Source: Eubacteriales bacterium (GTDB lineage: Bacteria > Bacillota > Clostridia > Oscillospirales > Oscillospiraceae). Taken from it: 64,000 nucleotides of DNA. The notes under the pieces are model-generated. The model was not told where the DNA came from. It did no database searches and saw only the letters and a list, made by a program, of their open reading frames with translations. The translations under genes and the position numbers were made by a program. Positions within the stretch are counted from its first letter, which is position 1, and every line of letters begins with the position of its first letter. Positions 2,870 to 30,285 of this stretch are shown one piece after another. The stretch covers positions 1 to 64,000 of the forward strand of contig JAUNPV010000005.1 in assembly GCA_030536515.1 (NCBI GenBank), written 5' to 3'.

Positions 2870-3302
2870 ACAGATTTTTCCGCAGGATGGGCTGCTCGGT
2901 GGATTCGGCGTTTTGGAAGGCACCGTAGAAGCTGGCGGCGCCGGGGTTTCGGGCCTGGATGAGGTAATACTGGTCGATGCGGTTTTGGCGGCACACCGCC
3001 TCAAATTCCCGGAACAGGGCCTGGGCCACGCCCCGGTGGCGGTGGGCTTTGGCAACATACACCCAGTTTACATAGGCCATGCGACAGCCGTCCTGGAGGC
3101 AGCTGTAGAAGTGGTATTCCAGACGGCCGATGACCTGGCCGCCCTCCACCGCCACCAGGGAGGTTGTACTGGGCAGATTTTCCAGAATCAGCCCTTCATC
3201 CACCCGTTCGGCGGTCATCATCTCCGGCTCCTCAGCCATGGCGGCACGGAGATAGTCCAGATAGGTCCGTATGTTCGCTTGCGACAGGGATTCGATTTTC
3301 AT
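2868..3302 (-). CDS. GNAT-family N-acetyltransferase
   Basis: A 144-aa protein with the GNAT fold. The acetyl-CoA pyrophosphate loop reads HRHRGVAQALF (about residues 91-101), preceded by the beta-4 strand MAYVNWVYV and followed by an ARNPGAASFYGAF stretch typical of motif B. It transfers an acetyl group from acetyl-CoA to an unknown amine. Nothing in the neighbours suggests a substrate. Confidence 0.8.
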   Translation of the reverse strand: MKIESLSQANIRTYLDYLRAAMAEEPEMMTAERVDEGLILENLPSTTSLVAVEGGQVIGRLEYHFYSCLQDGCRMAYVNWVYVAKAHRHRGVAQALFREFEAVCRQNRIDQYYLIQARNPGAASFYGAFQNAESTEQPILRKNL

Positions 3303-3328
3303 GGAAGTTTCCTTTCATACTATTTCTT

Positions 3329-3517
3329 AATAAAAATCTTTAACAAGATTTTTATTATCCAGCCTGACGGCTGGGGGGGCTTTCCGCCGAAATCAGAAAA
3401 ACGAGTTTTTCTGATTTCCCCGAAACGCCCCAAAGAAACGGATGGTACTTCATTTTTCATCGCCTACGGCGATTAGGCGGCAAAAAGCCGCCCACGAAAA
3501 CGATAAATCGTTTTCGT
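3329..3517. repeat. Tandem array of perfect hairpins
   Basis: Between the radical SAM stop and the acetyltransferase start, at least five inverted repeats follow one another: AATAAAAATCTT/AAGATTTTTATT (3329-3356), CCAGCC/GGCTGG (3359-3374), AATCAGAAAAA/TTTTTCTGATT (3391-3416), ATCGCC/GGCGAT (3459-3473) and ACGAAAACGAT/ATCGTTTTCGT (3494-3517). A GGCGGC/GCCGCC pair sits at 3476-3492. The array may act as terminator or be a composite repeat. No coding signal is seen. Confidence 0.65.
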
Positions 3518-19936: not shown

Positions 19937-20863
19937 ATGAAGCGCGGATGGTACTTGCCCTTTGCTTTGGAAGCCTTGGCGGCGGCTTTGGTGTTCTGGA
20001 AATTTCCCGGGGACGGGACTTTGTTTGGGGCCATGGCGCTGCCCTTTACGCTGCTGGGGAAGGGGCTGCGGCAGCTGTCTTTGTCCGGGGCGGCGGGGAA
20101 TCTTGCCGCCTGGGCAGTTTATCTGGCCCTTTCTCTGGCCCCCCTGGGGGTGCTGGCCTGGCGGGCGGCCCGGAAGCAGGCTTCCCGGGAGGACTGGCTG
20201 CTGGCTGTGCTGGCGGGGGTGGTGGCCTGGGGGCTTTACTGCCTGGTCAATCCCGGCAGCCTTCCCGGCATCTGGGGCGGCACGGACGTGGGGGCCTATC
20301 TCTGCGCCCAGGTGATTTGGTCGGCGGTGCTGTGCTGCGCCCTGTTCCTGGCGCTGCGGGTCCGGCCTGAGCGGCTGCTGGGCTGGCTGCTGAACGGCCT
20401 GGGGGCCGTGGTGGTGCTGAACGCCTGGGGCGTGGAGCTGGGGCGGCTGGTGCTCAAAATGGACCAGGTCCGCCAGGCCAACACCCTGGGCAGCCTGGCC
20501 CTGACCAACGGAATCCTTCTTCTGCGCTACGGCATGGACCTGGTAAACGGCAGCCTGGGCCTGTGGGTCATCGGGGCGGGCCGGACCCTGGCGGACCGGC
20601 TGAGCCGGGATGCCTACGCCCAGGACACCGTGGATGCTGCCCAGGTCCTTATCCGCCGGGGGACGGTCGCTCTGAAAACGGCGGCGGCGGGGACCCTGGG
20701 GCTGAACCTCATCCAGGTTCTGGCCGGGGAGCGGCTTCGGGACATGGCGCTGAATGTGGACCTGCCCCTGCTGAGCATGGTGCTGCTGCTGGCGGGCATC
20801 CTCCTGGGCCGTCTGCTGACCCGGGGCAAGGCCCTGCAGGACGACAGCGACCTGATTATTTAG
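19937..20863 (+). CDS. DUF2975-like multi-pass membrane protein
   Basis: A 308-aa protein with about eight membrane segments. The C-terminal part, with a four-helix layout and the ending GKALQDDSDLII, resembles DUF2975 proteins, which are usually about half this length and are commonly paired with a YozG-like XRE regulator, as here. ATG at 19937 is preferred over the ATG at 19931 because GGAGGG abuts the earlier codon. Function is unknown; the tight link to a regulator suggests a sensing or anti-regulator role, which is inference. Confidence 0.65.
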   Translation: MKRGWYLPFALEALAAALVFWKFPGDGTLFGAMALPFTLLGKGLRQLSLSGAAGNLAAWAVYLALSLAPLGVLAWRAARKQASREDWLLAVLAGVVAWGLYCLVNPGSLPGIWGGTDVGAYLCAQVIWSAVLCCALFLALRVRPERLLGWLLNGLGAVVVLNAWGVELGRLVLKMDQVRQANTLGSLALTNGILLLRYGMDLVNGSLGLWVIGAGRTLADRLSRDAYAQDTVDAAQVLIRRGTVALKTAAAGTLGLNLIQVLAGERLRDMALNVDLPLLSMVLLLAGILLGRLLTRGKALQDDSDLII

Positions 20864-20873
20864 GAGGGACGCC

Positions 20874-21128
20874 ATGGCCATTGTATCCCATTTGGACGAG
20901 GTCCTGCGCAGCCGGGGCATCACCGCCAAGGAGCTGTGCCAGAAGGTGGGCATCACCGAGGCCAACCTGTCCATCCTGCGCAGCGGCAGGGCCAAGGGCA
21001 TCCGCTTTGCCACCGTCAACCGCATCTGCTACTATCTCGGCTGCGACGTAGGGGACATTTTGAAATTCGACGGCAAATTGGAGGAGGACTGCGATGAAAC
21101 GGCTATTTCTGATGCTTCTGGCAGCTAG
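20874..21128 (+). CDS. XRE/Cro-CI family regulator (YozG-like)
   Basis: An 84-aa protein made almost entirely of one helix-turn-helix domain: KELCQKVGITEANLSILRSG forms the HTH and ICYYLGCDVGDILKF ends the domain. Small regulators of this YozG type lie next to DUF2975 membrane proteins in many Bacillota. It begins 10 bp after the membrane-protein gene and overlaps the lipoprotein gene by 35 bp, so all three are one operon. It probably binds the direct repeats upstream of the operon. Confidence 0.85.
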   Translation: MAIVSHLDEVLRSRGITAKELCQKVGITEANLSILRSGRAKGIRFATVNRICYYLGCDVGDILKFDGKLEEDCDETAISDASGS

Positions 21129-22023
21129 CGTGCTGCTGTCCGGCTGCCAGCTGGCAAGGCCCGAGGCCCAGGCCCCGGCAAAGGACCGGCTGGCGGGGGT
21201 GCTGGTGACCACTGAGCACCTGGACCTGTTCGACATGGAGGCTTATTTAAACGACCACATAAATGACATCGGCCCGGGGGACCATGTGGTGTCCGACACC
21301 GCCGGTTATGAGGGGCGGATTTACGGCGAGCTGACCCAGACGGGACGGCATGAGGACGGGGCTGCGAAGTATGAGGTTTCCTTCCCGGAGGTGGAGGGGT
21401 ATTTCTGGGTGGACCTGCGGTGCAGCGCCTCCGGCCTCTGGGAGCCGGACGGGGAATACTACTGGAATTCCACGGGAAACGGCGGCCTGTACGATTTGAA
21501 ATCCGGCATCAGCTCCACCGACCGGGGGGAGGAGAGCACCCTGGAGCTGACCGTCGCCTACTGGCAGGACGGGCCGGTGACCATGTTCTGCAACCCCATT
21601 TACCAGACGGCGGACGGGAAAATCTACGTGACCTCCGGCAGCGGCCTGTCCGGGGACCTGGCTCTGGGCGGCAAAATGACCCAGACCCTGACGAACACCG
21701 TCACCACAACTGTGGACGGGGAAAGCCGCACTGATTCCACCACCGTGATGGTCCATGCAATCCACGCCCTGCCAACGGAAGAATTGAGGCTGGTCCAGCT
21801 GGACGAGCAATACCGCATTCTGGCGGAAAACGACTACAAAAAGGGCAGTTTCCCGGCATCCCTGAACCTGGAACCGGGAGCCGTCTGCCTCATCGTCCAG
21901 ACCACCGACGGCCAGACCACCACCCGCACCCTCTGCCAGAGGGGAGATGAAAACGCAGTCTATTTCACCACCCAGGGCAGCATCTGCATCCCCGGCTCGG
22001 TGGAGCTGAATTGGAGCGAATGA
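21094..22023 (+). CDS. Lipoprotein, function unknown
   Basis: A 309-aa protein with a lipoprotein signal peptide and lipobox VLLSGC (Cys at about 18). The rest looks like an extracytoplasmic, beta-rich domain with acidic character; no family was recognised. The ATG lies 8 nt after GGAGGAGG, inside the end of the XRE gene in another frame. Co-transcription with a membrane protein and regulator suggests a surface component controlled by that regulator. Confidence 0.7.
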   Translation: MKRLFLMLLAASVLLSGCQLARPEAQAPAKDRLAGVLVTTEHLDLFDMEAYLNDHINDIGPGDHVVSDTAGYEGRIYGELTQTGRHEDGAAKYEVSFPEVEGYFWVDLRCSASGLWEPDGEYYWNSTGNGGLYDLKSGISSTDRGEESTLELTVAYWQDGPVTMFCNPIYQTADGKIYVTSGSGLSGDLALGGKMTQTLTNTVTTTVDGESRTDSTTVMVHAIHALPTEELRLVQLDEQYRILAENDYKKGSFPASLNLEPGAVCLIVQTTDGQTTTRTLCQRGDENAVYFTTQGSICIPGSVELNWSE

Positions 22024-22036
22024 CTGGAAAAAAAGC

Positions 22037-22294
22037 GGCCCCTGTGCTGAAAAGCACAGGGGCTCAGTCTGTCGAAAAACCCCTTCGGGGCTTTCCGACA
22101 GAAGGGATGCAGCCTGCTGCGTGCATAATTTGTACGCCTATGGCGTACAAATTCCACACTTGCAGTCTGAGATGTATTTTCGTCCAGGTACACGCCCCGG
22201 CCGAAAATGATTTAGAATTTATTTGCCGCTGCGGCGGCAAACTCTGCGAGGCTTTTTCGATGCCCTGGGCCCCTGTGCTGAAAAGCACAGGGGC
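22037..22294 (-). repeat. Structured element between duplicated terminator hairpins (copy 1)
   Basis: Identical 27-nt hairpins (22037-22063 and 22268-22294; arms GCCCCTGTGCT/AGCACAGGGGC, loop GAAA) flank a 204-bp core in the same orientation. Read on the minus strand, the core shares blocks with 26644-26951: AAAAAGCCTCGCAGAGTTTG, AAATCATTTTCGGCCGGGG, a 36-nt block identical at every position (22157-22192) and a hairpin block AATTTGTACGCC/GGCGTACAAATT (22114-22156). Core ends are complementary (TCGAAAAA/TTTTTCGA). It lies between convergent genes. Confidence 0.8.
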
Positions 22295-22300
22295 CGTCAG

Positions 22301-24103
22301 TTATTCGGGGGCAAAAACCGCTTCCAGAGTCAGACCACCGTCAACCGGGAGGGTCACGGTGGGGGCGGTTTCCTCACAGCTGCCCCGCCAGCCCACGAAC
22401 CGATAGCCGGGGCTTGGGGCGGCGGTGAGGGTGATGGGGTAGTCCGTAAAATACTGCCCGGACCAGGCCCCGCCGGACAGGTCCAGGGTGGAGGTGTTGA
22501 CGGTGACCTCCCCCATTTCCGGGGCCTGGGTGGAGACAGTGACGGTCTCCAAAGAGCCGGTCAGTGCAAACTCCTCCGCTAAATGCTGAACAGCATACCC
22601 GGGCCGCTCCCGGAAGTAGCCGTCCATCCAGTCCAGAGTGTAGCCGTACTTCTCAAGCACCCCGGCCACCCGCTCCGGCGCAAAGTTGTTGTTGAGAATG
22701 TCCATAAAGGACAGAACGAATTGGCGGCGGAACGCCGGGCTCGGGTAGACAGCCTTGTAAAATGATAGAATGTCTGAGCGGGACCTCCAGTTATTGGGCA
22801 GGCTGTTCACGGCAGCCCGGCTTGTCTGACCATCTTCTGCCGGGTCAAACCAATGAATGTAATCCAAATCAAAGGTGCACCAGCGCCAGCGCAGGTCCCC
22901 GTAGGGTGTGGACTTGTAGGTCAGGCTGCGCCATACTGCATAATTGTGCCAGTCGGAAAGATCGGTGTTGCAAAAGAAGTAATTGATGGCTACAAAATCA
23001 ATAAAACTTTGAATATCGGCTTTTTCCAGCAGGGCATCCCAGTTTTCGGGGTCCGTAAAATCGTTTTCCTGAACCCAGCGGTAGAATTCAATGTAGACAT
23101 CGTAATTCAGTGTCGCCATGGAATCGTCGTCCATAAAGCCGTTTTTATACAGGATACGGTCGTCTACTCCATAATGACTCTTGAAAAACTGCTGGTCAAA
23201 CCGTTCCAGAAGATACCCGTCATACCAATATTCTCCGTTGAGATAGAGGGTGATGGGGATGGCCCCCTGGACGGCGGTTCCACGGTCACCCACAAGGTCT
23301 TTTGCTATGGCATCCGAAAGGGCCTCCTTTGTCATAATGGAGTGGGACGGTATATTTCCGAACAGGTTGACATCAAATACATTCTGCCCGCTGATTTCCG
23401 GCCTTGCAACCAGAATAAACCGCTTTTTGGCATTTTCCCGGGCGGATGCCCCCTGAATGCGCAAGCCGGCAGGCTGTCTGAGAACAGTTCCGGACTCAGA
23501 AAGAACGTCCATGGTGACGGTGGTTTCAAGGTGCTCAATGAAGTTGGGGTTAGGCTCCTCCCCGGAACGGCCGCCCTGATACCATGTATCGTAGGCTTCA
23601 CCGGTGCTGTAAATTCCATTGGGCCCAAACAAATCCTCCCGATTGAAGGCCAGGGAGAGGGTATATCCCCGCTCCGGCGGCTGAATCCCCACAAAGTAGG
23701 TCTGGGTCATCACCTCGCTCTGAATGCCCCATGGGTTGACGTAGATGGCCCGGACCACGGTTCCCTTGGGGACCGGGGCCTCATCCGGCTGGTAATTTTC
23801 CCAGTCTTTCACCACATTTTGGATGGAATTGTAAATATTGGGTTCCTGAGAACGGTCCCTGATTTCAATCCCGTCTACGTAAAGTTCAGAGTTGACTGTT
23901 GGAATACTTCCGTCTGTGGAGAAAAATATTTTTCCTCGGGGGGGGGGGGTAAACTTCAGTGTAAATGCTTCCTGATAGTATCCGCCGGGCGCAGAGGGCG
24001 TCGGCATTGGAGCGGCGTATTGCCCCTCGACCCACAAAAAGAAGGCGGAAAAAGCCACTAAAAGCCCGCAGGAAGCCAGCAAAAACTTACTTTTGCCCCG
24101 CAT
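22301..24103 (-). CDS. cotH: CotH kinase family exported protein
   Basis: A 600-aa protein with an N-terminal signal-anchor (about residues 6-24), a chitobiase/Fn3-like domain (about 40-120, FFSTDGSIPT), then a CotH kinase-like domain (about 145-480) with GLRIQGASARENAKKRFILVAR, the TLYLNGEYWYDGYLLERFD strand-helix and the metal-site stretch WCTFDLDYIHWFD. A C-terminal InlB-type beta-repeat follows (VSTQAPEMGEVTVNT to the end). CotH phosphorylates spore-coat proteins in Bacillus; homologues with adhesion-type domains occur in gut bacteria. It starts 3 bp after argS and is likely co-transcribed. A 12-C tract lies near codon 52. Confidence 0.82.
   Translation of the reverse strand: MRGKSKFLLASCGLLVAFSAFFLWVEGQYAAPMPTPSAPGGYYQEAFTLKFTPPPRGKIFFSTDGSIPTVNSELYVDGIEIRDRSQEPNIYNSIQNVVKDWENYQPDEAPVPKGTVVRAIYVNPWGIQSEVMTQTYFVGIQPPERGYTLSLAFNREDLFGPNGIYSTGEAYDTWYQGGRSGEEPNPNFIEHLETTVTMDVLSESGTVLRQPAGLRIQGASARENAKKRFILVARPEISGQNVFDVNLFGNIPSHSIMTKEALSDAIAKDLVGDRGTAVQGAIPITLYLNGEYWYDGYLLERFDQQFFKSHYGVDDRILYKNGFMDDDSMATLNYDVYIEFYRWVQENDFTDPENWDALLEKADIQSFIDFVAINYFFCNTDLSDWHNYAVWRSLTYKSTPYGDLRWRWCTFDLDYIHWFDPAEDGQTSRAAVNSLPNNWRSRSDILSFYKAVYPSPAFRRQFVLSFMDILNNNFAPERVAGVLEKYGYTLDWMDGYFRERPGYAVQHLAEEFALTGSLETVTVSTQAPEMGEVTVNTSTLDLSGGAWSGQYFTDYPITLTAAPSPGYRFVGWRGSCEETAPTVTLPVDGGLTLEAVFAPE
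23938..23949. repeat. Homopolymer of 12 G (12 C in cotH sense)
   Basis: Encodes Thr-Pro-Pro-Pro-Arg near codon 52 of cotH. A gain or loss of one base by slipped-strand pairing would stop the protein shortly after the signal-anchor. It is the longest homopolymer seen in the window. Confidence 0.95.
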
Positions 24104-24105
24104 AG

Positions 24106-25854
24106 TTACATCTTCTCAGGCGCTTCGAAGCCCAGCAGGTTGATGGAGGTTTCGAGAATATTTTTGGCCAGGGCAATCAGGGCGATGTAGCCGGATTTCA
24201 GGTGCTCGTCCTCCTCGCCCAGGATGCGGGTTTCGTGGTAGAACTTGTTGACGCAGCCGGCCAGCTCGTAGATGTAGGCGCAGACCAGGTTGGGGGCGGA
24301 GGACCGCAGGGCGGATTCCAGGGCGGGGGCAAACTTGGTGACGGACAGCATCAGCTCCTTGGCGGCTGGGTTGGCCGGGGCCTGGATGGGAAGGCTCTCC
24401 CAGGGGCCGTACTTGGCCAGGATGGACTTGATGCGCACGATGGTGTAGAGAATATAGGGGCCGGTGTTGCCCTCGAAGGCGGCGAAGCGCTCCATGTCGA
24501 AGTTGTAGTCCTTGGTGGGCTGGTTGGACAGGTCGCCGTATTTCAGGGCCCCCATGGCGATTTTCCGGGTGGTGTCCTCCACGGCATCGGCTGACACAAT
24601 CTGGTTTTCCACCACCTTGGCCCGGACGAAATCGGTCATGTCGGAAATCAGGGTTTCCAGCCGCAGAACGCCGCCGTCCCGGGTTTTGAAGGGCTTGCCG
24701 TCGCTGCCGTTCATGGTGCCGAAGCCGATGTGCTCCAGCTCCACCTCGGGGGTCACGATACCGGCCTTCCGGGCGGCCCGGAACACCTGCTCAAAGTGGA
24801 GGTTCTGCCGCTTGTCGGTGACGTAGAGCATCTTGTCCGGGTGCCAGTCGCGCATTCGCTGGACCATGGTGGCAAGGTCCGTGGTGGCATAGATGGAGGA
24901 GCCGTCGGACTTGACCAGAATGCAGGGGGGGACCTCCTTTTTATCCCCCTCTTGGGCCACGGGAATGACCCAGGCCCCCTCGGAGGGAACGGCGATGCCC
25001 CGTGCCTTCATGTCGGCCACCATGGCGGGAATGTAGGGGTCGGCGTCGCTTTCGCCCAGCCACTGCTCAAAGTGGACGTTCAGATTGTCGTAGTTCTTTT
25101 TCAGGTCCGCCACGGACACGTTCATAATGTGCTGCCAGATGGCCCGGTAGCCCCGGCGGCCCTGCTGAAGCTCAAAGGTGGCCTGGTGGGCCTTGCGGGA
25201 GAAGTCCGGGTCGGCCTTTTTGGCGGAGGCGGTGGGGTAGATTTCCTCCAGCTGGGAAATGGTGAAGGGGGCCTCGGCAGGGTACTCGCCCTGGAAATCC
25301 GGGTCAAAGTAGGGAAGCTCCGGCTGCCGCTCGTGAAGCTCGGCGATAATCAGGCCCATTTGCAGGCCCCAGTCCCCCAGATGCACGTCGCCGATGGTGT
25401 TGTAGCCGAAGAATTTGTACAGCCGCTTCATGGCCTCGCCGATGATGGCGGGCCGCAGGTGGCCGATGTGCAGGGGCTTGGCCACGTTGGCCCCGCCGTA
25501 GTCGATGACCACGGTTTTGCCCCGGCCCAGCTTCGGCACGCCGAAGCTCCCGGCGGTGCGCATTTCCTCCAGATAGGTTTGCAGGAAATGGTCGGACAGC
25601 TTCAGATTGATAAAGCCGGGCATGACGGCCTCAATCATGGAATAGTCGGCGGCGGCCAGCTTCTCCGCCACGGCCCTGGCGATTTGAATGGGGGCGCACT
25701 TGTACTGCTTGGCGGCGGCCAGAGCGCCGTTGCACTGGTATTCGCACAGGTCCGGCCGGTTGGACACGGTGACCCGGCCAAAGGAAGCGTCGAAGCCAGC
25801 GTCGGCAAAGGCCTGCTGCATTTTGGAAGTGATGATATCGAGGATTTTCTCCAT
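24106..25854 (-). CDS. argS: Arginyl-tRNA synthetase
   Basis: A 582-aa class I synthetase that charges tRNA-Arg. The N-terminal ArgS-specific tRNA-recognition domain (about 1-85) is followed by the HIGH motif in NVAKPLHIGHLRPAIIGE (about 130) and the catalytic core. The C-terminal DALR anticodon-binding domain (about 465-582) ends INLLGFEAPEKM. Full family length. A promoter-like TATACT lies about 40 nt upstream; no T-box leader is present. Its stop is 3 bp before cotH. Confidence 0.95.
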   Translation of the reverse strand: MEKILDIITSKMQQAFADAGFDASFGRVTVSNRPDLCEYQCNGALAAAKQYKCAPIQIARAVAEKLAAADYSMIEAVMPGFINLKLSDHFLQTYLEEMRTAGSFGVPKLGRGKTVVIDYGGANVAKPLHIGHLRPAIIGEAMKRLYKFFGYNTIGDVHLGDWGLQMGLIIAELHERQPELPYFDPDFQGEYPAEAPFTISQLEEIYPTASAKKADPDFSRKAHQATFELQQGRRGYRAIWQHIMNVSVADLKKNYDNLNVHFEQWLGESDADPYIPAMVADMKARGIAVPSEGAWVIPVAQEGDKKEVPPCILVKSDGSSIYATTDLATMVQRMRDWHPDKMLYVTDKRQNLHFEQVFRAARKAGIVTPEVELEHIGFGTMNGSDGKPFKTRDGGVLRLETLISDMTDFVRAKVVENQIVSADAVEDTTRKIAMGALKYGDLSNQPTKDYNFDMERFAAFEGNTGPYILYTIVRIKSILAKYGPWESLPIQAPANPAAKELMLSVTKFAPALESALRSSAPNLVCAYIYELAGCVNKFYHETRILGEEDEHLKSGYIALIALAKNILETSINLLGFEAPEKM

Positions 25855-25936
25855 GGTATAGCTCCTTATTTTTCGTCATATATTCTACAGTATACCAAAA
25901 TTTTTCCCGATTGTACAGAGGAAAACGAAAAAAAGA

Positions 25937-25976
25937 GCTGTCATTCTGAGCGCCAGCGAAGAATGACAGCATTTTT
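25937..25976. terminator. Bidirectional hairpin of the TGTCATTCT type
   Basis: Arms GCTGTCATTCT (25937-25947) and AGAATGACAGC (25960-25970) with a GAGCG...AGCGA inner part, followed by six T. It terminates plus-strand reading and, being symmetric, may serve the XRE gene on the minus strand. Confidence 0.7.
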
Positions 25977-26203
25977 TACTCCCGGAAGTCGAACAGCTGC
26001 TTGGGCGTTACTTCCAGGGCATCGCAGATGTCGAAAATCACATCCAGGGAAACCGCACAGTCGGCTACCTCAATGCGCCCCATGTGGGTGCGGCTGATGT
26101 TGACTTTTTCTGCCAGTTTCATCTGTGAAAGCCCACGTTCCTTTCGGTAGTAGGCAATATTCAAACCGAGGTAGCGATACCGATCATAATGTCTAAATTG
26201 CAT
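25976..26203 (-). CDS. XRE-family transcriptional regulator
   Basis: A 75-aa single-domain helix-turn-helix protein. NIAYYRKERGLSQMKLAEKV and ISRTHMGRIEVADCAVSLDV form the HTH, and ICDALEVTPKQLFDF closes the domain. The start at 26203 is preferred because AGGTGA precedes it and the upstream extension has no site. It is divergent from the 84-aa gene at 26355, with a palindrome between them, so it probably controls that gene and itself. Confidence 0.85.
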   Translation of the reverse strand: MQFRHYDRYRYLGLNIAYYRKERGLSQMKLAEKVNISRTHMGRIEVADCAVSLDVIFDICDALEVTPKQLFDFRE

Positions 26204-26291
26204 AAAATCACCTGTATGCAGTGTACACCACATCAATGTTATTTTACACAACGTATAATATTACAATTGCAACTTGAAAAGTGGATAATAC

Positions 26292-26309
26292 TATGCTACA
26301 GTTAGCATA
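26292..26309. promoter_or_regulatory. Palindromic operator candidate
   Basis: Perfect TATGCTA-CAGT-TAGCATA in the 151-bp spacer between the XRE gene and the 84-aa gene. A TTGCAA (26267-26272) lies just upstream, so the palindrome overlaps the likely -10 region of the plus-strand promoter. Confidence 0.5.
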
Positions 26310-26354
26310 TCTCCTTCGGCAGGGGATACACCATAATAAAAAGGAGGCCTGGTT

Positions 26355-26609
26355 ATGATTCCGGTGGATTTTGAAGATGTTGCAAAAAGACTGAGAGGAA
26401 ACGATGAAATATACCAGAAGCTCTATGGGGAGTATCTGGAAAAATTGGAGAATTTCGACCGCATTATGGATACGCTGTCCTTCGAGGACCGGTGTGATTT
26501 AGATGATTTTATCACCGTATGCAATCTGATGGACGAGCGGGACCTGAAACTGCTGGTCACCTACTATGCGATTCACGGAGCAACGGAATTCAAAAAGACC
26601 ATATGGTAA
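26355..26609 (+). CDS. Small acidic helical protein, function unknown
   Basis: An 84-aa, mostly alpha-helical soluble protein rich in Asp, Glu and Leu (FEDRCDLDDFITVCNLMDERDLK). RBS AAGGAGG precedes the ATG by 8 nt. No family recognised. It is divergent from an XRE regulator. Size and pairing would suit a small regulator-linked protein or half of a toxin-antitoxin pair, but nothing in the sequence shows toxicity. Confidence 0.6.
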   Translation: MIPVDFEDVAKRLRGNDEIYQKLYGEYLEKLENFDRIMDTLSFEDRCDLDDFITVCNLMDERDLKLLVTYYAIHGATEFKKTIW

Positions 26610-26612
26610 GGG

Positions 26613-26982
26613 AAAACCGGGAGGGCACTGCCCTCCCGGTTTCAGTGTGTCAAAAAAGCCTCGCAGAGTTTGCGCCGTGAGGCGCAAATAAAGTTCAAAT
26701 CATTTTCGGCCGGGGCGCACCCCAGGGTGGCCTCTCTTGCCCCTTCGGGGCAATTCACCTTCTGTACCTGGACGAAAATACATCTCAGACTGCAAGTGCG
26801 GTGCGTCGCGCAGCGAATCCAAATCAAATATGATTGCCGGTGGCAATCATACAATAATTTTTGGAATTTGTACGCCAACGGCGTACAAATTATGCACGCA
26901 GCAGACTGCAAAAGTTTGTCAAAAAGCCCCGTAGGGGATTTTTGACAGTCTAAAACCGGGAGGGCGCTGCCCTCCCGGTTTC
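26613..26982 (+). repeat. Structured element between duplicated terminator hairpins (copy 2)
   Basis: Two 31-nt hairpins (26613-26643 and 26952-26982; arms ACCGGGAGGGC/GCCCTCCCGGT) identical except one base flank a 308-bp core. The core matches the minus strand of copy 1 at 22064-22267 in four blocks, including 36 of 36 bases at 26763-26798. It also has two extra hairpin-bearing segments, near 26718-26762 and 26799-26861. Core ends pair as GTCAAAAA/TTTTTGAC. It lies between convergent genes. Confidence 0.8.
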
Positions 26983-26989
26983 GATTTAT

Positions 26990-28723
26990 CTAAATATACT
27001 GCTGTGTATTCACATCAATAACGCCCCGGGTGGTCAGGCGCAGGGTGGGGATGACGGGCAGGCTCATGAAGGACAGGGTCATAAACGGGTCGATGCCCCC
27101 GTGGACGCCCAGGGCGGCTGCGGCGGCCTTGGCCCGTTCCAGCAGGTCGTTGACCTCCGGCAGAGGCCGGTCGCTCATCAGACCGGCGATTTCCAGGGGC
27201 AGCTGCGCCAGGACCTGGCCTTCTTTCACCACCACGATGCCGCCGTGGTTCCGGGCGATTTGGGCGGCGGCCAGGGCCATGTCCTCGTCCGTGGCTCCCA
27301 CGCAGATGATGTTGTGGCTGTCGTGGGCCACGGAGGTGGCCACGGCTCCGGCCTTCAGGCCGTAGCCCTTCAGATAGCCCAGGCCGATGTGGCCGGTGTT
27401 CTTGTGCCGCTCCAGAACGGCGATTTTCAGAATGTCCCGTTCCAGGTCCACCCGGTCTGCATAGCCTGCGTCAAAGGTGACAATCTGGCCGGGAATCATG
27501 CCGATCACCCCCCGGGGGCGGGTGAGGGCAAAGTCGGCGGCGGTGGGCAGGGGCAGGTGGAAGGTGTCGTGGGCCTTGGTGTTGAGGTAGTCGGGAATCT
27601 GGGGCAGGGGGAAGTCGGCGACCACGCCGTTTTCATAGACCAGCCGCCCCTTTTTGTAAACGGTGACCACGTTGAAGTCTTTTAGGTTGTCCACAATGGC
27701 AAAGTCCGCCAGATACCCCGGCGCAATGGCCCCCCGGTTATTCAGCAGGAAGTACCGGGCGGCGTGGAGGCAGGCCACCTGGACCGTGCGGATGGGGTCG
27801 GCCCCCATGCGGACCGCCTCCCGGCAGATATAGTCGATGTGGCCCTTTTCCAGCAGGTCGCTGGGGTGCTTGTCGTCGGTGCAGAACATACAGCGGTCGT
27901 AGTATTTTTCCGACAGAATCAGTGGCATCAGGGCCTCCAGATTCCGGGCGGCGGTGCCCTCCCGAATCATAATGAACTGGCCCAGGCGGAGCTTGGCCAG
28001 AGCGTCGTCCAGGTCGGCGCACTCGTGGTCGGAGTAGACCCCGGCGGCCACGTAGGCGTTCAGCTCCTTGTCCCGCAGGCCCGGGGCATGGCCGTCGATT
28101 TTCTTGTGGTGGGCCTGGGAGACAATGATTTTGGCAACGGTGGCATCGTCGGCGGAGATAATGCCGGGGAAGTTCATCATCTCCGCCAGCCCCTGGACTC
28201 TGGGGTGCTCAAAGAAGCTGTCAATGTCCCGGTGGTCCAGGTTGGCCCCGCTTTCGTCCATGGGCGTGGCGGGGACGCAGGAGGGAATCATAAACTGCAC
28301 GTCCACAGGCAGCCCCTCGGTGGCGGCCATCATGTAGTCAATGCCGTCGGTGCCCATGACGTTGGTGATTTCGTGGGGGTCGGTGATGACGGTGGTGGTG
28401 CCGTGGGGGATGACCGCCCGGGCAAACTCCGCCGGGGACACCAGGCTGGATTCCAGATGGATGTGGGCATCCACAAAGCCGGGGCAGACGATTTTCCCGG
28501 ACACGTCCACCTCGCTCAGCCCCTCGTAGCTTCCAATGCCCACAATAAGCCCCGAGGCCACGGCGATGTCCCCCTGCTCCAGCTCCCCGGAGAACACGTT
28601 GACAAAGACGGCGTTTTTCAGCACCAGGTCCGCCTTCTCCCGGCCGGCGGCCACATCGATGATATGGAGCTTTTTAATGAGCTTGCGGCCGATTTTCCCG
28701 GACCAGCTTTCGGTATATGCCAT
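26990..28723 (-). CDS. ade: Adenine deaminase
   Basis: A 577-aa amidohydrolase that converts adenine to hypoxanthine and ammonia in purine salvage. Metal-binding GFVDAHIHLESS (about residue 90), then DPHEITNVMG, SGHAPGL-type DGHAPGLRDKELNAY and CTDDKHPSDLL follow in the order typical of Ade. The C-terminal domain includes ATSVAHDSHNIICVG. ATG at 28723 is used because AGGGGTG lies 7-8 nt upstream; longer frames upstream cross the promoter. No purine riboswitch is visible in the short leader. Confidence 0.93.
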   Translation of the reverse strand: MAYTESWSGKIGRKLIKKLHIIDVAAGREKADLVLKNAVFVNVFSGELEQGDIAVASGLIVGIGSYEGLSEVDVSGKIVCPGFVDAHIHLESSLVSPAEFARAVIPHGTTTVITDPHEITNVMGTDGIDYMMAATEGLPVDVQFMIPSCVPATPMDESGANLDHRDIDSFFEHPRVQGLAEMMNFPGIISADDATVAKIIVSQAHHKKIDGHAPGLRDKELNAYVAAGVYSDHECADLDDALAKLRLGQFIMIREGTAARNLEALMPLILSEKYYDRCMFCTDDKHPSDLLEKGHIDYICREAVRMGADPIRTVQVACLHAARYFLLNNRGAIAPGYLADFAIVDNLKDFNVVTVYKKGRLVYENGVVADFPLPQIPDYLNTKAHDTFHLPLPTAADFALTRPRGVIGMIPGQIVTFDAGYADRVDLERDILKIAVLERHKNTGHIGLGYLKGYGLKAGAVATSVAHDSHNIICVGATDEDMALAAAQIARNHGGIVVVKEGQVLAQLPLEIAGLMSDRPLPEVNDLLERAKAAAAALGVHGGIDPFMTLSFMSLPVIPTLRLTTRGVIDVNTQQYI

Positions 28724-28756
28724 ACGGATGCACCCCTTTTTCATAATTTGTATATC

Positions 28757-28777
28757 CCGTAGGGCGGCCTGCCCTAC
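28757..28777. repeat. GTAGGGC/GCCCTAC hairpin in the ade leader
   Basis: GTAGGGCGGCCTGCCCTAC, a short near-palindrome of the GGCGGCC...GCCCTAC type also seen at 1310-1340 and 31825-31845. It lies between the ade promoter and its start codon, so it would be transcribed in the leader. Confidence 0.6.
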
Positions 28778-28793
28778 AATACAACTTACAGAC

Positions 28794-28822
28794 ATTATAC
28801 AGCAAAATTCCGCAAATGTAAA
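28794..28822 (-). promoter_or_regulatory. Promoter of ade
   Basis: On the minus strand TTTACA (28817-28822) and TATAAT (28794-28799), 17-nt spacer. Confidence 0.75.
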
Positions 28823-28838
28823 AACTTTTTTTCGCATC

Positions 28839-28866
28839 TTGCAAAAGAAGGGAAAGCTGATATAAT
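28839..28866 (+). promoter_or_regulatory. Promoter of the ktrB operon
   Basis: TTGCAA (28839-28844) and TATAAT (28861-28866), 16-nt spacer, 39 nt before the start codon and divergent from the ade promoter. Confidence 0.75.
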
Positions 28867-28905
28867 ATAGGGTAGCAAATTTTATCCATTGGAAGGGGAA
28901 CAGGA

Positions 28906-30285
28906 ATGAAAGCACGGGAACGGCTTTATCTATATTGGCTGCGGCACCGGCCCAGGAGCCTCAGCCCCACCAAAATCATTGCGGTCACCTTTGCGGTGCT
29001 GATTCTGCTGGGGGCGGGGCTGCTGACCCTGCCCGCCGCCTCCCGGGACGGTCTGTCGGCGGGATTCCGCCCGGCGCTGTTCACCGCCACCTCCGCCACC
29101 TGCGTCACAGGCCTAGTGCTCTACGACACCTGGAGCCAGTGGAGCGGCTTTGGCCAGACGGTGATTCTCTGCCTGATTCAAATCGGCGGCCTGGGCTTCA
29201 TGTCGGCGGCCACCCTGCTGGTGTTCCTGCTGCGAAAAAAGATTGGCCTCAAGCAGCGGCTGGTGATGGCCCAGGCCCTCAGCGTGGGCGACGTGGGCGG
29301 CGTGGTGCGGCTGCAAAAGACCGTGCTGGTGGGCTCCTTTGCCATCGAGGGAATCGGGGCGCTGATTCTGACGCTGCGGTTTTGGCCGGAGTTCGGGCTT
29401 GCGACGGCTCTGAAATGGGGCGTTTTTCACTCGATTTCCGCCTTCTGCAATGCGGGCTTTGATATTTTCGGGGTTTTAAGCCCCGGCGCCAGCCTGATAG
29501 AGTGGAGCTCGGATCCGGTGGTGCTGCTGACTTTGGGGGCGCTTATCGTGCTGGGCGGCCTGGGCTTTCTGGTGTGGGAGGACATTGCCGTCCACCGGCG
29601 GTTTAAAAGGCTGGGGGTCTACACCCGGCTGGTGCTGGTGACCACCGGGGTGCTGATTCTGGCGGGCTGGGTGCTGACCTGTGTGCTGGAATGGAACAAT
29701 CCGGCCACCCTGGGCCCCATGAGCCTGGGGGACAAGCTCTTAAACGGTCTGTTCCAGTCCGTGACCCTGCGGACTGCCGGCTTTGCCGCCGTGGACCAGG
29801 GCAGCCTCACCGACGGGGCCAAGGCGGTTTCTCTGGTGCTGATGCTCATTGGCGGCTCCTCCGGCTCCACCGCCGGAGGCCTGAAAACCGTGACCTTTAT
29901 GGTGCTGCTGCTGTTCATCGCCTCCCGGGCCCGGGGCAAAAGCCGGGTGTGCGCCTTCAAGCGCACCATCCCCCAGGGCCAGGTGCTGGACGCTATGACC
30001 ATTGCCTTTCTGATGATTGCCCTGGCAGTGTTCGGCGGCATTTTCATCAGCGCCACCTGCCCGGTGGGCTTTACCGACGCTCTGTTTGAAAGCGTGTCGG
30101 CCCTGGCCACCGTGGGACTGACGGCGGGGGCCACCGGGAGCCTGACGGTTCCGGCGCAGATTCTGATCATCTGCTATATGTATTTCGGCCGTGTGGGCCT
30201 GCTGACCATCAGCCTGGGCTTCCTCATGGGGGACCGGGCCGAGGAGCGCTTTACCTACGCCGAGACCAAGCTGCTCATCGGATAA
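28906..30285 (+). CDS. ktrB: TrkH/KtrB-type potassium uptake channel subunit
   Basis: A 459-aa membrane protein of the TrkH/KtrB superfamily with four pore repeats. P-loop segments such as ATSATCVTGLVLYDT (about 62) and a glycine-containing TLRTAGFAAVD (about 288) are visible. It is the K+-translocating pore, with a length nearer KtrB than TrkH. RBS GGAAGGGG precedes the ATG. The regulatory ring subunit gene follows after 16 bp. Confidence 0.92.
   Translation: MKARERLYLYWLRHRPRSLSPTKIIAVTFAVLILLGAGLLTLPAASRDGLSAGFRPALFTATSATCVTGLVLYDTWSQWSGFGQTVILCLIQIGGLGFMSAATLLVFLLRKKIGLKQRLVMAQALSVGDVGGVVRLQKTVLVGSFAIEGIGALILTLRFWPEFGLATALKWGVFHSISAFCNAGFDIFGVLSPGASLIEWSSDPVVLLTLGALIVLGGLGFLVWEDIAVHRRFKRLGVYTRLVLVTTGVLILAGWVLTCVLEWNNPATLGPMSLGDKLLNGLFQSVTLRTAGFAAVDQGSLTDGAKAVSLVLMLIGGSSGSTAGGLKTVTFMVLLLFIASRARGKSRVCAFKRTIPQGQVLDAMTIAFLMIALAVFGGIFISATCPVGFTDALFESVSALATVGLTAGATGSLTVPAQILIICYMYFGRVGLLTISLGFLMGDRAEERFTYAETKLLIG

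Follow-up and report, generated by a model that had tools for sequence, protein, structure and literature searches.

Introduction

DDE transposons usually duplicate their target over a fixed length. The IS1202 and IS1634 families carry long or variable direct repeats, as the element described here does, with other transposase families; to our knowledge no palindrome rule exists for them. For the IS1182 family ISfinder gives direct repeats of 0-60 bp, and long IS1182 repeats may already be known to specialists.

One IS1182-family member described in this respect is IS1272 of staphylococci, which replaces inverted repeats of 22-30 bp and leaves no duplication (PMC5678879). In the same paper it was proposed that attack at the 3'-feet of a cruciform loses the stem-loop and that attack at the 5'-feet would duplicate it; the duplication (pathway b, Fig 13) is drawn as a possible branch only (PMC5678879). 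TnSha1 and IS1272 were described in another paper as sitting in hairpins, some of which are confirmed terminators, with a blunt deletion (PMC4923244). ISPse1 is an IS1182 member that was captured in Paracoccus; we take the 4 in its table row as a 4-bp duplication, which matches the short repeats found here off hairpins, and the text consulted mentions neither palindrome nor hairpin, a difference from the element here (PMC3281130). Bacterial MITEs, as described in a further paper, are short, present in many copies and have only their inverted ends in common with an autonomous partner (PMC3852290).

In this paper we looked at a short mobile element of gut bacteria that was found twice in a window of 64,000 nucleotides (the whole stretch of DNA analyzed, from an Eubacteriales bacterium of the Oscillospiraceae) and that represents a new family of IS1182-type MITEs, which duplicates whole hairpins at its targets. 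It agrees with IS1272 and TnSha1 in the IS1182 transposase family of its proposed partner and in a target that is a palindrome or terminator hairpin with no sequence consensus (PMC5678879, PMC4923244). It differs from both in that they delete or replace the hairpin without duplication, whereas here the whole hairpin is duplicated. Likewise, it has the small size, high copy number and shared ends of bacterial MITEs, and unlike these MITEs in general, which have a short target repeat, it duplicates a whole, variable hairpin. In a literature search of partial coverage we found no report of whole-hairpin duplication by an IS1182 element.

The two copies in the window

The core pattern of the element occurs twice in the window, compared with 0.00 expected occurrences. 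The features of the two copies are as follows.

22037..22063, no strand assigned: left hairpin of copy 1, one of the duplicated terminator pair (27 nt)
22065..22267, plus strand: copy 1 of the MITE, a short form of 203 bp, CAGTCTGTCGAAAAACCCC ... TTTTTCGATGCCCTG, placed by its ends and the consensus
22065..22101, plus strand: left terminal inverted repeat of copy 1, including a subterminal hairpin
22157..22192, plus strand: conserved core block, the source of the search patterns
22242..22267, plus strand: right end of copy 1, including the right terminal inverted repeat
22268..22294, no strand assigned: right hairpin of copy 1, one of the duplicated terminator pair
26613..26642, no strand assigned: hairpin adjoining the right end of the element in copy 2 (30 nt)
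26643..26951, minus strand: copy 2 of the MITE, a long form of 309 bp that contains two extra internal modules
26952..26981, no strand assigned: hairpin adjoining the left end of the element in copy 2, with one mismatch to its partner

The structure that the original prediction had read from copy 1 is borne out by the analysis. The 27-nt hairpins at 22037-22063 and 22268-22294 are identical, and copy 2 is flanked by another hairpin that is also duplicated, as a 30-nt pair which is unlike that of copy 1 in sequence and differs within itself by one base. The termini were said to be complementary, and CAGTCTGTCGAAAAACCCC and TTTTTCGATGCCCTG indeed form an imperfect inverted repeat. Strong stems had also been proposed, and both copy regions, including their flanking hairpins, outfold every shuffled sequence (z -9.96 for copy 1 and -12.30 for copy 2).

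The two additional hairpin modules of copy 2 (26643-26951) are common to the long copies L015, L016, L018 and L019. These extra modules of the long form may be nested insertions.

Family size and distribution

The element is 200-310 bp long with inverted CAG...CTG ends, and the long forms contain additional internal modules. It is short, is present in many copies, has terminal inverted repeats and carries no transposase gene, as is typical of a MITE. The source genome (2.63 Mb in 48 contigs) contains at least 23 copies, two of which are those in the window. A search of this genome with the shared core block, which had been suggested together with the original prediction, gave 21 places with up to three mismatches, and two more copies (L034 and L040) were recognized from their right end. 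A shorter core with one mismatch gave 26 places, all but three of which were read. One further copy of the source genome, L218, lies at the end of contig C13 and is cut by the contig end.

In the genus, the shorter core pattern was found in 33 of 136 genomes, including the source genome; a stricter first pattern, which missed diverged cores, had given 11 of 61. A scan of species genomes gave at least 106 stretches with the core. Among the 80 matches listed, most belong to Oscillospiraceae or Eubacteriales bins, Candidatus Faecousia and Papillibacter cinnamivorans, and three viral contigs also match the core. Many of the loci from the genus and species scans come from the same genomes and were merged by a flank filter; dropping copies with identical flanks left a set of 127 distinct copies, of which L021 is not a member. 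In L123, around positions 3013-3500, a different repeat some 400 bp long interrupts a copy of the element.

The flanking hairpins are duplicated in most copies

In 109 of the 127 copies the flanks were long enough for direct-repeat scoring, and 645 mispaired left and right flanks served as control. A direct repeat on both sides with a score of at least 14 was found in 76 of the 109 true pairs compared with 4 of the 645 mispaired ones; at a score of at least 16 the numbers are 72 of 109 and 0 of 645. In the source genome 15 of the 22 copies of the set have the repeat. IS1272-type replacement, in which the hairpin is lost and nothing is duplicated, does not describe these 76 copies.

The repeat is centered on a palindrome that varies from site to site. 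In 67 of the 69 strong cases the center of the palindrome lies no more than 2 nt from the center of the repeat, and a stem score of at least 9 was reached in 65 of the 69, compared with 2 of 69 upstream control segments. Most pairs have the loop as well as the stem in common between the left and right hairpins. The hairpins differ between copies, so that the family does not carry one and the same flanking hairpin from place to place; a single flanking hairpin in all copies had been named as the outcome that would contradict the original prediction.

Repeat lengths vary among copies from 14 to 39 bp (78 copies, under a slightly looser flank filter) and cluster around 27-28 bp. They rise with the span of the palindrome, with a moderate correlation (Spearman 0.39, p 0.0009, 69 strong cases). 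As the local hairpin is usually left complete on both sides of an insertion, DNA shape and not a fixed spacing seems to govern how long the target duplication is. The proposal that the element inserts at terminators with a long target-site duplication is thus supported by the 76 of 109 copies, and also by the syntenic empty sites of one locus and by autonomous IS relatives, as described below.

A proposed IS1182-family partner

A scan for the element ends pointed to contig C43 of the source genome, where an IS at about 83116-84703 (L220) has the ends CTGCCTGTCGAAAAAGTCC and TTTCTCGACAAACTG; the MITE has its ends in common with this IS of the same genome. The 422-aa open part of its transposase reaches 307.8 bits against NF033551 transpos_IS1182 (cut-off 270) and shows the domains DDE_Tnp_1_6, DDE_Tnp_1 and DUF772; the transposase frame contains a stop. 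The IS sits between two 25-bp copies of AGGCCGCAGAATTTTTCTGCGGCTT, a hairpin, with one mismatch between them. Relatives found by protein, in 10 of 61 genomes, and also by family have ends of the form CAGNYTGTCRAARAA.

The autonomous elements have the same target habit. Among 13 distinct IS1182-type loci with a recognizable end, 10 show a stem score of at least 9 at every visible end; weak stems with a score of 6-7 were found at L221, L327 and L230, the last without a convincing hairpin. Both ends are visible in five IS1182-type loci, each of which has a direct repeat: besides the 25-bp repeat of L220, these are an exact repeat of a 64-bp palindrome at L223 (genome G038), exact repeats of 25 bp at L222 and 23 bp at L327, and a degraded repeat of 18 bp at L221.

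A similar picture comes from genome G001, which has eight copies of the element by the stricter pattern. Two of its contig ends carry the same hairpin and are oriented as expected for the left and right flanks of a single insertion; from one of these ends the sequence continues into what, as read by eye from the translation, is the C-terminus of an IS1182-like transposase. G001 also contains a second MITE family with like ends and another core, in which all four copies read (L360-L363) lie between duplicated hairpins of 25-30 bp, with small differences between the hairpins in two of the four.

Further short elements that combine these ends with different interiors were seen at L330, L339 (genome G018) and L344 (genome G136, which also holds L111). 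One of these three has a TCATTGCGA-type repeat, and L339 lies between duplicated copies of AATCCCCTTCGGGGAT.

Across the genus, NF033551 matches with E<=1e-20 occur in 28 of 136 genomes, 17 of them above the cut-off. By a hand count, the core and NF033551 occur together in 10 of 136 genomes, little above the 6.8 expected by chance without association, and NF033551 matches are present in 9 of 18 element-bearing genomes. The family search gave no NF033551 match in the MITE-rich G018 or in P. cinnamivorans; a missing partner may be due to loss of the autonomous copy and to broken assemblies.

The element had been presented as one without a known counterpart. This part of the original prediction does not hold, since the ends and the target habit are common to IS1182-family insertion sequences and place the element with them. 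Integration of the Cas1 type (casposon, CRISPR-repeat-like), which also duplicates palindromic repeats, was dropped as a candidate once the IS1182 partner was found. ISAs1 and IS1202 were weighed as further candidates and were set aside.

How a hairpin may be duplicated

The reading that fits these data best, and which we hold with good confidence, is that the MITE is moved in trans by a palindrome-targeting DDE transposase of the IS1182 family and that the hairpin becomes duplicated by attack at the feet of a cruciform. In such a process the transposase would recognize the MITE through the common ends CAGNYTGTCRAARAA, with a preference for palindromes, which are mostly terminator-like hairpins. 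Extrusion of the target palindrome would form a cruciform, and on each strand one of the element's 3' ends would be joined to the 5' foot of the hairpin. After gap repair the hairpin would be complete on either side of the element, and for this reason the duplication would be as long as the hairpin itself.

This series of hairpin duplications is the outcome that the 5'-foot branch of PMC5678879 predicts. We regard that branch as the most likely route, presumably acting on a cruciform and not on a single-strand hairpin at a replication fork. One can go a step further and suggest that the transposase reads DNA shape. Its substrate would be the four-way junction of the cruciform, the palindrome (about 6-64 bp) and not the geometry of the enzyme would set the length of the duplication, and one family would give two outcomes, deletion by IS1272 and whole-hairpin duplication here, by the choice of the attacked foot alone; we lean towards this broader view by a small margin of belief.

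Another explanation is that a transposase with a long duplication acts on linear DNA, where a wide stagger of ~27 bp and a preference for symmetric targets would give the same repeats with no cruciform. The clustering of repeat lengths around 27-28 bp agrees with this option, and families with long, roughly fixed duplications, of the IS1202 type, do exist. Yet the lengths extend from 6 bp (L009) through 14-39 bp to 64 bp and increase with the palindrome, and the partner belongs to the IS1182 family, in which hairpins are the published target of IS1272. We therefore consider the linear-DNA option unlikely.

Insertions of this kind show how an element may settle on terminators and yet spare them, because a full hairpin remains on both sides. 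The dozens of natural insertions with a hairpin-matched duplication also make the cruciform-foot pathway of IS1182 elements directly testable.

RNA and coding readings of the core

One can also ask if the core is a structured RNA or regulatory module that is kept for its own function, with the hairpins as its terminators and mobility as a secondary trait. For this question 40 short-form copies out of 59 were aligned, taken from the 45 that remained after filtering at 95 percent similarity. Their core has a mean column identity of 76 percent across genomes of different genera, and double changes occur in 21 of 43 predicted pairs; together with the strong folding of both window copies, these observations speak for such a module. 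A wobble test does not support an RNA role for the core: G-U cells are not in excess of A-C cells (17 and 17) when the column pair 120-154, which is U-G in 31 of 40 copies, is omitted, and the numbers are 48 and 17 when it is included. As selection on a one-strand RNA should favor G-U, we attribute the covariation to the maintenance of palindromes in the DNA and do not regard it as proof of an RNA. In window positions 20000-29000 no Rfam family reaches its gathering score (a single match has 24.2 bits, compared with 41), and the flanking hairpins are local and change from copy to copy. In our view a functional RNA module is very improbable.

The original prediction held that the core has no reading frame. 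In the literal sense this is not so, since a mechanical ORF of 131 aa (22011-22406) crosses copy 1; what stands is that there is no conserved gene. A frame is open over 95% of the length in 35 of the 40 short copies, compared with 681 of 2000 shuffled sequences, and the element is poor in stops on both strands. No conserved frame was found among the 40 copies, in which five of the six possible frames are represented among the open ones, none of them open in more than 22 copies. This scatter indicates no shared protein, and the coding reading was rejected. Variability by codon phase in one block (0.063, 0.092 and 0.119) is too weak to be weighed.

Empty sites in relatives

Empty sites were looked for by a query of joined flanks against the 136 genus genomes; 18 stretches were fetched, 12 with both flanks and 6 with one, the latter being uninformative. 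Nine relatives (L300-L308) have both flanks of the L010 site without the element between them. The presence of two hairpins at such empty sites would have spoken against a duplication, and none of the nine has two copies of one hairpin. A single palindrome with a stem score of at least 7 lies near the insertion point in six of the nine. L306 has a terminator-like hairpin and a second, weak AT-rich palindrome of unrelated sequence, L308 has a weak AT-rich palindrome only, and L307 has none. The hairpins at these empty sites do not have the sequence of the source-genome hairpin. Both flanks of the L009 site are kept in L309, L310 and L316, three relatives that have neither the element nor its 6-bp repeat. 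Searches from the genes next to the two window copies led to no syntenic empty site for either of them, and gene order around copy 2 is not conserved.

The view that the element duplicated nothing and merely lies where two converging genes already had their terminators is hardly credible: it has in its favor that copy 1 is located between converging ORFs (and copy 2 as well, provided that a short frame on the plus strand, recognized by eye and with its end near 26610, is a gene), that two unlike hairpins flank four of the 109 copies (L001, L112, L153 and L076) and that L306 has its second palindrome, but for most copies it is opposed by a score that is reached in 72 of 109 true pairs and in none of the 645 mispaired ones, by the match of loop and stem in most pairs and by the lack of two copies of one hairpin in any syntenic relative.

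Copies without the repeat

The duplication of a hairpin does not extend to every copy, as 33 of the 109 have no such direct repeat. At least two of these, L058 and L070, have intact hairpin repeats and were yet scored as lacking them, because the element is shortened. Of the copies with unlike hairpins, L001 may be explained from L218, where the left hairpin, on the contig end, is close to the right hairpin of L001; this similarity suggests recombination or misassembly at L001. Several other copies have a hairpin on one side only, and several have no recognizable left end. Copies that match the core without a convincing left end (e.g., L103, L131, L136 and L181) were kept in the count of 109 and may be fragments or chance matches.

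Short repeats were found at L009 (ACAGTT), L177 (ATAGTT), L147 (ACCTAACTG), L003 (AGGCAGCT) and L007 (AAATAAATTT). From these five loci it seems that on targets without a hairpin the duplication is short, about 6-10 bp.

Finally, the left and right hairpins of one insertion can differ in an ordered way. At L019, L059 and L067 the loops on the two sides are reverse complements of each other or nearly so, judged by eye and from the scores; the loop inversion of L067 is absent from the script score because the repeat was over-extended. At L121 and L169 some stems differ by paired changes. With their inverted loops and paired stem changes, the palindromes look as if they had been rewritten after insertion.
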